From assembly GCA_903930515.1 (NCBI GenBank), contig CAIYYW010000001.1, positions 1-11,373 on the forward strand: DNA of 11,373 nucleotides. The letters run 5' to 3'. A program made the translations under genes and the position numbers. The notes under the pieces were generated by a model. That model searched no databases, was not told the DNA's origin, and saw only the letters and a list, made by a program, of their open reading frames with translations. This document shows, one piece after another, positions 1 through 9,738 of the stretch. The DNA comes from an uncultured delta proteobacterium. Lineage in GTDB: Bacteria > RBG-13-61-14 > DRUE01. Position 1 is the stretch's first letter; each line of letters begins with the position of its first letter.

Positions 1-1175
1 ATATCTTCCTTTCCTAACAAATCAATCAGATCTGCTGAAATGTACCCCTTTGATTGATCCTTGAAGAATTTTTCAAAAATCTTTAGCACCTTTCCATATA
101 CAGAATCCGCCAGCTTTTTATCCTTGCATTGCCGTTTAAGTTGATCCCGAAGCCATCTTTTATTATGATATATTGTTCCTGATTTTGTTGGACTTAAGGC
201 CAATAGACTTAATAGGACTCCTTCTTTTGGAAGGAGCATTTGAATCGCTATTTCTGTTTTGTTAGATCCTGCAATCAAATCCAAGCTACTAAATCCAGAA
301 AGCAACTTGCGGGCAACTCTGACTATTTGATCGCCTTTTGGCAGTTGTTTTAGAGATTCAAACAGGATCTCTTCAGACATGTATGTTGGTTTTTCTATGG
401 TTTTTTCAAGAATGGTCACTTTGGGTTTTTCGGCTCCAGAATATTGGATATCCAATTTAATATGTTCAATTGCTTCGGACTCGGCAACAATATGGGGAAT
501 GATGAACAATGGATATTTTTCATCTTTGCCTTCTGAGAGTGAGAACAATTTGAGTTCAATCAATTTTAGTCTAAAATGAAAATGCGCAAAGAGATTCAAA
601 TAATTAGCAAGTTCTTTGGCTTGCTCCTGGATGCCCTCTCCGATAATCAATAATAAGATTCTGCCTTCAGAAAGATTTCTGGATACCTGATCAATGAAAG
701 TTTGTTCATCAAATTCAGAGAAATTTGCTTTAACGGCTTCTATAAGGTCTTTATTCTTAAGTTGATACTTATCCTTAAAATTGATGAAAAATTTATTGCT
801 CTCTTCTAAGAGCTTTTCATAATTCCATTGTGCCATTTGATTTGCGTAATCCAAGATTTGAGCAACTACTTGCCTCCTCGCTTCAGGATTTCTCCATAAC
901 TTGGTTTCAACGATCACGGGGACCCCTGATTCGGTAATGAATAGGTTATCTATGGGCCCTGCATTCGTGCCAACCTCCCTTCCAATTGGTATCAGCGATT
1001 CCCCGATCCCCGGCTCAATTTCTTGCAAAGGAATCAATTCGGGATGAATAATCAACAAATCCTGAATCCACTCTTCCTCAATTAATTTTTCTCCAAGTGG
1101 AATTTGGGTCAGCTGTTTTCCTTTATCCCTTTCCGCATTTAGAAATATAGGCGTCCCTAGATTATTTTTTCTCAT
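1..1175 (-). CDS. PD-(D/E)xK nuclease-like protein, partial (3' end outside window)
   Basis: The reading frame is open from an ATG at 1175 to the window edge: 391 codons without a stop, so the C-terminus is missing. Residues about 73-110 have a PD-(D/E)xK nuclease-like arrangement: D76 (GPIDNLF), a beta-strand ending in E90-x-K92 (VPVIVETKLW), then Q106-xxx-Y110 (QILDY), which resembles the helix after the active site in RecB/NucS-like nucleases. A second recognisable block is RILLLIIGEGIQEQAKELA near residues 190-212, followed by a hydrophobic strand segment (LKLIELKLF). I recall similar blocks in uncharacterised conserved proteins with an N-terminal nuclease fold. Substrate and role are unknown; DNA repair or defence are both possible. 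A modest AAGGG lies upstream of the start. The DNA is AT-rich (27%, 43% and 55% GC in three 60-base samples) compared with the downstream genes, which hints at separate acquisition. Its nearest neighbour is serA, 115 bp away on the same strand. Confidence 0.8.
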   Translation of the reverse strand, partial: MRKNNLGTPIFLNAERDKGKQLTQIPLGEKLIEEEWIQDLLIIHPELIPLQEIEPGIGESLIPIGREVGTNAGPIDNLFITESGVPVIVETKLWRNPEARRQVVAQILDYANQMAQWNYEKLLEESNKFFINFKDKYQLKNKDLIEAVKANFSEFDEQTFIDQVSRNLSEGRILLLIIGEGIQEQAKELANYLNLFAHFHFRLKLIELKLFSLSEGKDEKYPLFIIPHIVAESEAIEHIKLDIQYSGAEKPKVTILEKTIEKPTYMSEEILFESLKQLPKGDQIVRVARKLLSGFSSLDLIAGSNKTEIAIQMLLPKEGVLLSLLALSPTKSGTIYHNKRWLRDQLKRQCKDKKLADSVYGKVLKIFEKFFKDQSKGYISADLIDLLGKED

Positions 1176-1290: not shown

Positions 1291-2868
1291 TCAGCCCAGG
1301 TTAACCTGTCGCGCGGAAATAATATTGGGCAGTCTCCGGATTTCTTCCAAAGCCGCCTCCGGAATCAAGCTGTCCACATTCACGATACAGATCGCCTCCC
1401 CGCCTTTCCTGCCCAACTGGAACCTTCCGATATTGATCTGGTGTCTGCCCATAAGGGAGCCGATATTCCCGATCACGCCCGGCCGGTCCACATTCCGGAT
1501 CACCAGCGCGTATCCCTGCGGGATCGCGTCCAGGCTGATCCCGCCGATCAGCACGATCCTGGGATCGGTTTTTCCGAACAGGGTTCCGGCGATCTCGGCC
1601 AGCTCCGGGGTCTGGTCCTGGATCTTGAGCTTGATCAGGCTGGCATAATCCCCGGCCTCGGAATCGCTGGACTCGCGCACCGTGATTCCCCGGGCCTTGG
1701 CCAATGCCGGCGCGCTCACATAATTGACCGGCTCGTCCATAAAACTCTCCAGCAAGCCCTTGAGCACGGAATGCGTGATCGGCTTGGTATTGAGGTTGGC
1801 CACCTCGCCGCGATATTCTATCTCCAGGCCGTGCAGGGTGGAAAGCAATTGCCCGGCCAATCTTCCCATCCGCTCCGCCAGGTTCAGATACGGAGAAATT
1901 TGCTCCATCACTTCCTTGCTCACGCTCGGGAAATTCACCGCGTTGGTGATGATGCCGTAAAGCAGATAGTCAACCATCTGCCTGGCGATCCCGACCGAGA
2001 CATTGACCAGGGCCTCGCCCGTGCTCGCGCCCAGGTGGGGCGTGTAAATGATCTCGGGGAGATCAAACAGCTCCCCGAACTCGGGCGGCTCCTTTTCAAA
2101 CACATCCAGGGCGGCTCCGGCCACCTTGCCCGACTTGATCGCCGCGATCAAATCTTTCTCCACAATGATCCCGCCGCGCGCGCAATTGATCAGGCGCACC
2201 CCGTCTTTCATTTTCGCGATGGTCTCGGCCCTGATCATCCCCTTGGTCTCCTCGGTCTTGGGAACATGCACGGTGATGAAATCAGACCGGCTGATCAAAT
2301 CGTCCAGGCCGGCCATTTCCACTCCCAGCTTTGAGCCCATCTCCGCGGTCACGAACGGATCATACCCGAGCACCTTCATCTTCAGGCCCAAAGCCCGGTC
2401 CGCCACGATCCTGCCGATATTGCCCAAGCCGATCACTCCCAGGGTTTTTCCCATCACCTCCACGCCGGTGAATTTTCCCTTCTCCCATTTCTTTTCCTTG
2501 AGCGTGAGATAGGCCTGCGGAATCTTGCGCGCCAGCGACATCATCAGGCTCAAAGTATGCTCCGCGGTGGTCACCGCGTTTCCGCCCGGGGTGTTCATCA
2601 CCACAATCCCCTGCCTGGTCGCGGTTTCCACATCCACATTGTCCACCCCGATCCCGGCCCTCCCGATCACGCGCAGGTTCTTCCCCGCTTCAATGATCTC
2701 CTTGGTGGCCTTGGTGGAACTACGGATCGCGAGCGCGTCATACTCCCCGATCACCGCTTTCAACTCCTCCGGCTTCATCCCGGTCTTGTAGTCCACAGTC
2801 AGGCCGGGAGCTTTCTTGAACAGCTCTATTCCTTCCGGCGCAAATTTATCGCTGATCAGTATTTTCAT
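1291..2868 (-). CDS. serA: D-3-phosphoglycerate dehydrogenase, long (ACT-domain) form
   Basis: A 525-aa protein that oxidises 3-phosphoglycerate to 3-phosphohydroxypyruvate with NAD+, the first step of phosphorylated serine synthesis, in the cytoplasm. The N-terminal substrate-binding lobe and Rossmann domain are clear: NAD-binding GLGNIG at 147-152, D-isomer dehydrogenase signatures at about 222-262, and catalytic R231, E260 and H278 (in TPHLGAS), with the same spacing as human PHGDH. Residues about 315-445 form the intervening (ASB-type) domain and about 453-525 a C-terminal ACT domain (VDRPGVIGNIG), so serine feedback or other allosteric control is plausible. The start at 2868 is chosen because AGGAGG at 2875-2880 lies 6 nt upstream and the protein then begins MKILISDKF as in relatives; a longer in-frame start at 2952 would overlap the aminotransferase gene. 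It lies 34 bp downstream of that gene on the same strand and is probably co-transcribed with it. Confidence 0.97.
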   Translation of the reverse strand: MKILISDKFAPEGIELFKKAPGLTVDYKTGMKPEELKAVIGEYDALAIRSSTKATKEIIEAGKNLRVIGRAGIGVDNVDVETATRQGIVVMNTPGGNAVTTAEHTLSLMMSLARKIPQAYLTLKEKKWEKGKFTGVEVMGKTLGVIGLGNIGRIVADRALGLKMKVLGYDPFVTAEMGSKLGVEMAGLDDLISRSDFITVHVPKTEETKGMIRAETIAKMKDGVRLINCARGGIIVEKDLIAAIKSGKVAGAALDVFEKEPPEFGELFDLPEIIYTPHLGASTGEALVNVSVGIARQMVDYLLYGIITNAVNFPSVSKEVMEQISPYLNLAERMGRLAGQLLSTLHGLEIEYRGEVANLNTKPITHSVLKGLLESFMDEPVNYVSAPALAKARGITVRESSDSEAGDYASLIKLKIQDQTPELAEIAGTLFGKTDPRIVLIGGISLDAIPQGYALVIRNVDRPGVIGNIGSLMGRHQINIGRFQLGRKGGEAICIVNVDSLIPEAALEEIRRLPNIISARQVNLG

Positions 2869-7685: not shown

Positions 7686-9665
7686 TCAGAATATTGACAA
7701 TACCAGCATCACTCCCCATCCGGCGCATTGGATTACGAGCCAGGCGAGGAAGATGATGCCGAGGGTCAGGAACATTTTGGGGAGGAATTTTTTTCCGCCT
7801 TCGGGACTGAATCTGCTAAAACCAATAATCGCTCCGCCGATCAGGGTCATGCAAGCCAGGGTAATCCAGGAAAATCCTTTGAAGCCTTTGGCGAGAATAT
7901 TGGGCAGATACCAGAAGCTGATAACGGTTGGTCTCTTGTCCCCGCCTTCGCCGGGGAAGAGTTTTTGGAACTGAAAAAGTTTGCCCTGGCGGGGAATATC
8001 CAGTTTGATGGGCAAAATGCCCGAGGCATGAGGCCCGATTTTAACCGGAGGAATTTTTTTCACTGATTCCAGGTCCGCGATGATTCCTTTGGCTTTCAAA
8101 TCTTCCAGGGTCTGCATCACCTGCTCATCCAATTCATCCAACTCCAGGTCGTTGACGAGATTGACGATCTTTTTGTTCTCGTCAATCATCCAGATGTCCG
8201 GCACCGGATCGGCGTCAATATTGCCAATGGCAAAAGTTTGAAACCCGGAAACATCGGCCCGGGTGTTTTTGATCACGCGTTTTGCCGGCGACTCAGATTG
8301 GTCTGGAGAGTTTGCGGGGATAAAATCCTTGCCCATATAGTATTGATACCTGGTGCTGGTTTTAGGCGCCCAGCCGGCCTCGTCAAAAGTTTCCGAATAG
8401 GCATGCAGTTTTTCCTGGTGCGCTTTTTGAGCCGAGAAAATGGCGCTCAGGTTTTCTTTCGCTTCCACCTGCCGGGCCCGGGCTTTAAACTTCAGAAAGC
8501 TCGGCGCGAGCAAAGTAGAGGAGAAAACATTCAAGGCGTCCTTGATCTCCATCTCAGCGCCGCTTCCGCCCTTTTTTTCCGGAACCAACTCCAGGCCGGA
8601 GAAATTCTGGTATTGATATTTATCGGGCAAAAACATAAACCAGTTCATCTCCCGCACCACCAGGTCCAATTTCGGCAATTCCATCGCGGTTCTTCCGCCT
8701 GCGCCCCATTGTTTGGCAGGATTGACATAGACAATTTCCACGGGAAAATCCTCAATCCCGCTCAAGCCCAGATCCGAGCGGGTGAGGGGGACCAAAAACT
8801 CTCCATCCGCGTTCCGGGAGGGCCGAACCGGATTATCCACCAGGAACGCGCTCCAGATTTTGGCGTCCTGAGGAAGTTGGATCTTAAGGTATTGGCGGGA
8901 CTTGTTGCGGACGCTGAAGATGCCTTTGGTGATACAGAAGCCGTCTTGCAGGCAAAGGGTCAAATACCTGGCGTCATCAATGATCGCGTCAATGACCTGG
9001 ACATCCTGGTATCTGGTGAGCTCAAAAGTAAGCGAGCGTTTAATTCCGGGTTCGCCCAGGGCGGAGTAAGCAAATCCGAGCAGGATCACGCTCTGGGTTT
9101 GTTTGCTCAAGGAGTCGGGAATCTGGCTTAAATCCAGTTGCTTAATGTTTTCGGACGGTCCGATCTTGATTTCCAGATTCGCGCTTGCCTCCAGGCCGAA
9201 AACGGCTTCGGTGGACTTGACGCCTTTCAATTCCAGGAACGGAAAATCCAGCGACTTGGCATCCTTGGGAATATATTTTTCATAGGTGAGGAACAGCGTC
9301 CATTCATCGCGCACCGGCTTGGTCAAGGCAATTTTCAGTTGTTGCTTATCCTCAAGCTGGATTATGTCTTGAGTGCGGATGAACTGCCCCTGGACCCGGG
9401 TAATATTGACCTCTTTAGGAAATTCAATCACCAAGTTGCTCATCCCCGGATCCGGGATCAGATAGTTGATCTGGACATTGATGCTGGCGAGGTTGTCGCT
9501 GAGGTTAATCAAGCCGAGAACTTCAGCAGTGATCTGGCTTTTGGCCTGGGATCCGGTTGGCAATAGATTGGAAGGATTTTTCTTTTCCTGGCCAGAAGCC
9601 TGAGCAAACGCGAATAATCCCAGAAGCATCACGATGGCCGCTAAAATTTCTCTTTTCTTTTTCAT
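7686..9665 (-). CDS. Secreted, C-terminally anchored protein with an embedded type IV pilin-like headgroup
   Basis: A 659-aa protein I cannot name. Residues 1-23 look like a signal peptide (KKKR, then a hydrophobic stretch, cleavage likely after AQA). Residues about 40-360 are a beta-rich extracytoplasmic body; C238 and C244 may form a disulfide. Residues about 387-506 (minus strand, roughly 8507-8148) resemble the part of a type IV pilin that follows its hydrophobic N-terminal helix: LLAPSFLKFKARARQVEAK (385-403), NLSAIFSAQKAH (405-416), GW..STRYQYY (431-443), and GFQTFAIGNIDADPVPDIW (474-492) leading into IDENKKIVNLVNDL. A short helical linker follows, then a strand-rich part (LPIKLDIPRQGKLFQFQKLF, 551-570), and two membrane helices at about 597-616 and 631-659. 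The loop between them is basic, so both ends probably face the periplasm. It has no prepilin leader and should not polymerise as a pilin. Start: AAGGAGG upstream, 6 nt spacing. It runs antisense to, and between, the two biotin units. Confidence 0.85.
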   Translation of the reverse strand: MKKKREILAAIVMLLGLFAFAQASGQEKKNPSNLLPTGSQAKSQITAEVLGLINLSDNLASINVQINYLIPDPGMSNLVIEFPKEVNITRVQGQFIRTQDIIQLEDKQQLKIALTKPVRDEWTLFLTYEKYIPKDAKSLDFPFLELKGVKSTEAVFGLEASANLEIKIGPSENIKQLDLSQIPDSLSKQTQSVILLGFAYSALGEPGIKRSLTFELTRYQDVQVIDAIIDDARYLTLCLQDGFCITKGIFSVRNKSRQYLKIQLPQDAKIWSAFLVDNPVRPSRNADGEFLVPLTRSDLGLSGIEDFPVEIVYVNPAKQWGAGGRTAMELPKLDLVVREMNWFMFLPDKYQYQNFSGLELVPEKKGGSGAEMEIKDALNVFSSTLLAPSFLKFKARARQVEAKENLSAIFSAQKAHQEKLHAYSETFDEAGWAPKTSTRYQYYMGKDFIPANSPDQSESPAKRVIKNTRADVSGFQTFAIGNIDADPVPDIWMIDENKKIVNLVNDLELDELDEQVMQTLEDLKAKGIIADLESVKKIPPVKIGPHASGILPIKLDIPRQGKLFQFQKLFPGEGGDKRPTVISFWYLPNILAKGFKGFSWITLACMTLIGGAIIGFSRFSPEGGKKFLPKMFLTLGIIFLAWLVIQCAGWGVMLVLSIF

Positions 9666-9738
9666 CTTCCGCCTCCTTTTCTGGTTTAGTGTTCACATTT
9701 TCTTTAATAGTTCCCGAAACTATGGGAATTGAAACCAA

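Follow-up and report, generated by a model that had tools for sequence, protein, structure and literature searches.

Can the globular head of a type IV pilin be parted from the stem by which pilins polymerise, and be built into a membrane protein of otherwise unrelated descent? This question is raised by an open reading frame of 659 codons lying on the reverse strand of the window, by which we mean the whole stretch of DNA analysed here, namely one entire contig of 11,373 bp from a metagenome-derived assembly of 401 contigs. The initial annotation of this DNA had read residues 387-506 of the encoded protein (8148-8507, reverse strand) as a pilin head that lacks the polymerisation helix, carried by a secreted body with two membrane helices. 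The neighbouring genes encode D-3-phosphoglycerate dehydrogenase, a class V aminotransferase, argininosuccinate synthase and, as assigned by family and context, the biotin enzymes BioB, BioF and BioA, and this biotin-gene neighbourhood offers no clue to the function of the 659-residue protein. When an empty site at the biotin locus was sought, the same-genus genome gave no bioF match at E <= 1e-40, and the bioF of an order-level relative lies in a different gene neighbourhood. A separate reading frame of the window (3-1175, reverse strand) is AT-rich (37% GC) and without a Pfam match; its VETK motif is, we presume, suggestive of a PD-(D/E)XK-type nuclease.

Sequence comparisons confirmed the pilin identity of residues 388-508. 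The Pfam model Pilin_PilA (PF14245), whose cut-off is 28.5 bits, scores the protein at 39.1 (E 1.2e-9), and the NCBIfam model of Myxococcus PilA gives an E-value of 1.6e-12, a partial match that falls far under the full-length cut-off of that model. The best relative of solved structure, by sequence, is the PilA of PDB entry 8tj2 (E 1.8e-9, residues 382-444), which we take to be the M. xanthus pilus. For an independent HMM of heads only, five genomes supplied seven true pilins, which were used from the helix-ending proline onwards; the 659-residue protein was left out. This HMM aligned end to end (HMM positions 1-120; 101.9 bits) with residues 388-508 and matched 0 of 102 other scaffold-family proteins, the 659-residue protein being its sole match among 103 ORFs. 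Pfam and this HMM thus bear out a significant pilin match over residues 385-510, beginning at P388 as the initial annotation had stated, and all the motifs that it quoted are found in the protein. In an alignment that comprises 15 pilins and fusions, every invariant position of the head is retained, namely W, two Y, F, A and N-x-D-x-D-(x)3-D-x-W; the acidic motif GNIDADPVPDIW (residues 481-492) is a possible metal site. When the whole protein was modelled with AlphaFold, the scaffold was obtained confidently and the head with low confidence, because none of the alignment rows used covers the head. A head-only model derived from distant viral-contig pilins was also of low confidence, and a PDB search with it was uninformative, so that the pilin fold of the head is a prediction from sequence that modelling did not confirm.

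The remainder of the protein, comprising residues 39-368 and approximately 549-620, belongs to a scaffold family without a Pfam or NCBIfam name, whose members share in alignments a conserved body and a closing GxLP...P..G anchor, with G549, P558, G561 and F566 invariant or nearly so. The family profile recovers the protein at E 1.8e-153 (the profile itself includes it), and a single-sequence search links it to the family at E 8.7e-38; the initial scaffold alignment was too diverse to serve a pattern search. In a broad sample the scaffold is present in 20 of 256 good-quality genomes, and it occurs in MAGs labelled Delongbacteria, KSB1, Calditrichaceae, Latescibacterota, WOR-3, TA06, Gemmatimonadota and Deltaproteobacteria, its units often being arranged in tandem or as fused pairs. 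The family loci are positions 7902-9539 of the window and L051-L057 and L062-L087. Scans of genome contigs with the whole 659-residue protein returned no relative, scans of viral contigs returned none of the whole protein and none of the head family, and scaffold searches in two further phyla turned up few genomes and no additional fusion resembling it.

The AlphaFold model has pLDDT values mostly of 80-95 over residues 45-358 and assigns residues ~223-356 and 561-588 to a second beta domain, which strands 561-569 and 581-588 close according to both the model and the structure search, and after which the first membrane helix comes directly. Since the match to M1 aminopeptidase-type structures spans residues 227-587, the head is nested in a membrane-proximal loop of this domain. 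Of 66 scaffold units measured, 62 have a loop of 57-144 residues; that of the 659-residue protein has 201. Three other long loops (182, 204 and 250 residues) all come from a second phylum: that of 250 contains its pilin insert, that of 204 keeps a pilin-like helix and is headless, and that of 182 has hydrophobic segments and no recognised pilin. Relatives that have the body without the insert were found; both flanks, beta strands included, are preserved in them, and a variable loop of unrelated sequence occupies the site of the head; by sequence, therefore, the head is not continuous with the surrounding fold.

Table 1. Features of the 659-residue protein and its gene, with positions in the window
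Feature	Residues	Positions	Strand	Basis
Whole gene, membrane-anchored scaffold protein with nested pilin head	1-659	7686..9665	-	ORF with ATG start; translation; Shine-Dalgarno AGGAGG at 9672-9677, immediately upstream
Signal peptide	~1-26	9588..9665	-	Hydrophobic stretch 5-26 after KKKR; position of cleavage putative
Scaffold beta domain 1	~43-222	9000..9539	-	Family alignment; AlphaFold pLDDT mostly 80-95
Scaffold beta domain 2, first part	223-356	8598..8999	-	Family alignment; model matches M1 aminopeptidase N-terminal domains (residues 227..587)
Junction	357-387	8505..8597	-	Resembles scaffold motif EEIIRGLNVF and also an eroded pilin N-terminus (KKG....E); permutation tests, post hoc
Type IV pilin head (helix 1 second half and globular part)	388-508	8142..8504	-	Pfam, head-only HMM, alignment
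Conserved acidic motif GNIDADPVPDIW	481-492	8190..8225	-	N, D, D, W invariant in 15/15 aligned pilins and fusions
Linker 3' of head	509-548	8022..8141	-	No family match; AlphaFold confidence low
Scaffold beta domain 2, closing part (GILPIKLDIP anchor)	549-588	7902..8021	-	Family alignment; model strands 561-569, 581-588
Membrane helix 1	589-618 (model helix)	7812..7901	-	Hydropathy peak 597-617; model helix
Membrane helix 2	628-647 (model helix)	7725..7784	-	Hydropathy peak 626-658 (hydrophobic to ~658); model helix

It is therefore with great confidence that we place the protein in this scaffold family and its pilin head, devoid of prepilin motif and hydrophobic helix, in the membrane-proximal loop of beta domain 2. 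The core of the initial annotation, a pilin head lacking its polymerisation helix on an otherwise unrelated membrane-anchored scaffold, is supported, as are the two C-terminal membrane helices, which hydropathy places at ~597-617 and 626-658. Two of its details need rewording. The protein is not simply 'secreted', for besides a signal peptide it has a membrane anchor, which holds the body outside the cytoplasm; and the head lies inside one beta domain rather than between whole domains.

The absence of the polymerisation helix and of a prepilin cleavage site, also claimed previously, held up: the 19 residues preceding P388 have a mean Kyte-Doolittle hydropathy of 0.5 against 3.0 in pilins, and the prepilin-motif models PF07963 and TIGR02532 find no match in the 659-residue protein, while the true pilin of the genome matches both. 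Compared with a polymerising pilin, the prepilin motif and the hydrophobic half of helix 1 are thus missing, and the second half of helix 1 and the head are present by sequence. The hydrophobic stem and Glu5 are the pilin parts that contact the machine and the filament neighbours (PMC10191384). Because the N-terminal half of helix 1 and a Glu5 in a usable context are absent, entry into a filament is not expected, and the head should not polymerise. The junction admits two descriptions. The 24 residues preceding P388 align without gaps to a pilin N-terminus, with KKG and Glu5 kept (permutation p 0.002, post hoc), and part of the same 24 residues resembles the scaffold (EMEIKDALNVF versus EEIIRGLNVF; permutation p ~0.003, post hoc). 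Residues 357-387 may accordingly represent an eroded pilin helix, or else a scaffold linker.

A parallel case is found in the second phylum (genomes G120 and G197-G221), where the scaffold occurs in 31 of 39 genomes. There, the scaffold proteins of 15 ORFs from as many genomes hold a different, ComGC/GspG-like pilin in the corresponding loop, preceded by an extra membrane helix; the pilin-carrying scaffold loci of this phylum (G120) are L036, L169-L175, L179-L181, L184, L186, L189 and L190. These inserts differ from that of the 659-residue protein in keeping the hydrophobic helix and often the GFRLxE motif. A motif of this kind survives in about nine of the 15, and the two that were scored reach 23.1 and 23.6 bits, above the NCBIfam prepilin-motif cut-off of 16.3; in others it is degraded, with the head retained. 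To judge from the motif, an internal GFRLxE might be cut by prepilin peptidase. At another locus (L187 of genome G199) the loop has a pilin-like hydrophobic helix and is headless, the mirror image of the 659-residue protein.

Pilin heads have also been joined to other membrane parts closer to home. The host phylum is represented by three genomes in the collection examined, and in these, seven further proteins combine the head with different membrane parts; the prepilin-motif model matches none of the seven. Two belong to the genome of the 659-residue protein itself, a zinc-ribbon-DUF4190 protein with a head (L003, 1489-2262, reverse strand) and a multi-helix protein with a head (L002, 1174-1998, forward strand). 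The same-genus genome has two tandem multi-helix head fusions (L042), and the order-level relative has three, two in L044 and one in L045. The L002 fusion is AT-rich, with 34% GC versus ~55% in most genes read, and was perhaps acquired from elsewhere. In the tree the zinc-ribbon and L042 fusions nest among resident true pilins with support of 99/94, which indicates repeated local capture; the seven fusions of this phylum and the inserts of the second phylum together imply that pilin heads have been captured repeatedly. One origin for all the pilin-head fusions of the host phylum was considered and rejected, as the well-supported branches cannot be reconciled with fewer than two changes. The tree position of the head of the 659-residue protein is itself unsure because its branch is long. 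No orthologue with the same scaffold-head fusion was found, and among open frames of more than 301 codons in 386 sampled genomes the head family matched this protein only, so that this precise combination has to date been seen in one genome.

A true pilin of the same head family is present in the genome, as the initial annotation would lead one to look for, together with candidate pilus genes, several of them named by sequence reading: a PilB-PilT-PilC-PilS-like set, a prepilin peptidase and a GspE/F/J/K-like set. The gene for the 659-residue protein does not lie near the pilus genes. Elsewhere in the genome there is a broken pilin gene (L004, ~1400-1890, forward strand) with one stop in frame and another right before the prepilin motif.

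What, then, might the nested head do? The initial annotation had offered assembly partner, cap, adhesin and remnant as conceivable roles. The explanation that we favour, and consider somewhat better than even in its chances, is that it is a fixed module for binding or display, the pilin fold having been reused as a recognition domain on a membrane-anchored scaffold, as would also be the case in the lineage's other membrane proteins with a pilin head and in the scaffolds of the second phylum that carry a pilin. The Sec signal would export the protein body, the two C-terminal helices would anchor that body to the inner membrane, and the head would face the periplasm beside the membrane, on the side occupied by a pilin head before assembly. 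Being stemless, it would stay out of the filament and act as a non-polymerising, membrane-proximal module. The order of the parts, beginning with the Sec signal, continuing with extracytoplasmic beta domains and head and ending with the anchor, is consistent with this. The head could instead serve the type IV pilus in a dedicated manner, as a membrane-fixed mimic of a pilin that docks on the platform, the minor pilins or the base and so works as a regulator, anchor or stop. The pilus and GspE/F/J/K-like genes just listed, the true pilins of the same head family and the placement of the head on the membrane side where pilins wait all speak for such a partner; the position of the gene away from the pilus genes, the absence of the very parts by which pilins touch machine and filament, and a wider scaffold family without any link to pili tell against it, and we regard it as rather unlikely.

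A functionless remnant, left when a piece of a pilin gene happened to land in a loop that tolerates insertions, appears improbable. It would sit well with the variability of the loop, the restriction of the exact fusion to one genome, the long branch of the head, a junction that may be an eroded pilin N-terminus and the broken pilin gene in the same genome. Against these stand an intact reading frame, the retention of all the head's invariant positions, N-x-D-x-D-(x)3-D-x-W included, in spite of long divergence, and a pilin insertion conserved at the same loop across 15 genomes of the second phylum; it is because pilins have been inserted repeatedly in that loop elsewhere that the remnant becomes less likely. 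That the fusion is an artefact of assembling metagenomic reads is very improbable indeed: the contig is short and its assembly fragmented, but scaffold sequence lies on both sides of the head, so two in-frame joins would be required, and GC content is uniform across the joints (scaffold 0.505, head 0.515, anchor 0.505).

If a fixed recognition module is the right reading, it has a bearing beyond this locus. A second phylum has fitted an unlike pilin to this very loop of the scaffold, so pilin heads appear to serve as components away from pili as well, and the two situations point to them as mobile recognition modules. A more general proposal, which we offer tentatively and with some doubt, is that pilin heads constitute a general non-pilus recognition domain, and that a membrane-proximal socket of a ribophorin-like bacterial scaffold received pilin domains on separate occasions in two or more phyla, which would link components or ligands of the pilus to an envelope complex. 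The comparison also draws attention to a widespread scaffold family of the envelope that is as yet uncharacterised, and some caution is advised in genome annotation, as a Pilin_PilA label need not mean a pilus subunit.

Among known systems, the scaffold is closest in predicted structure to OST1/ribophorin I (Foldseek E 1.7e-11, probability 1.00; VIA Z 14.7 over 328 residues, rmsd 21.8 A) and to the N-terminal domains of M1 aminopeptidases (Z 12.5, rmsd 3.1 over 149 residues), with which the model would share a pair of beta domains and the membrane helix after them. The rmsd of 21.8 A implies that the domain arrangement differs from that of OST1, or that the model does not define the arrangement; the 659-residue protein matches no ribophorin I Pfam family at E up to 1, and the shared fold does not by itself point to a function such as glycosylation or peptide cleavage. 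In the literature searched, which covered few subscription papers, no paper described a pilin head set inside a protein that is not itself a pilin, and none joined DUF4190 to a pilin. With Myxococcus xanthus PilA (8tj2) and the Pilin_PilA family the protein has in common, by sequence, the second half of helix 1 and the head; it differs in having neither a class III signal nor the hydrophobic helix, and in the membrane scaffold around the head. In the Geobacter pilin split, stem and head are two proteins (PMC10191384), and there too the head is apart from the stem; the Geobacter head, however, joins its stem in the filament, whereas in the present protein the head and its membrane scaffold form one covalent chain. 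Modular type IV pilins, such as Streptococcus sanguinis PilB, combine an N-terminal pilin with a grafted module and are polymerised into the pilus (PMC8179133), and they resemble the present protein in having a pilin and a non-pilin domain grafted in one chain. Known pilin fusions of this kind keep the prepilin motif and the polymerising stem, and their added modules decorate the pilus; in the 659-residue protein, by contrast, the pilin part is internal and without either, and the head, split from its stem, has been built into a domain of another, membrane-anchored protein.
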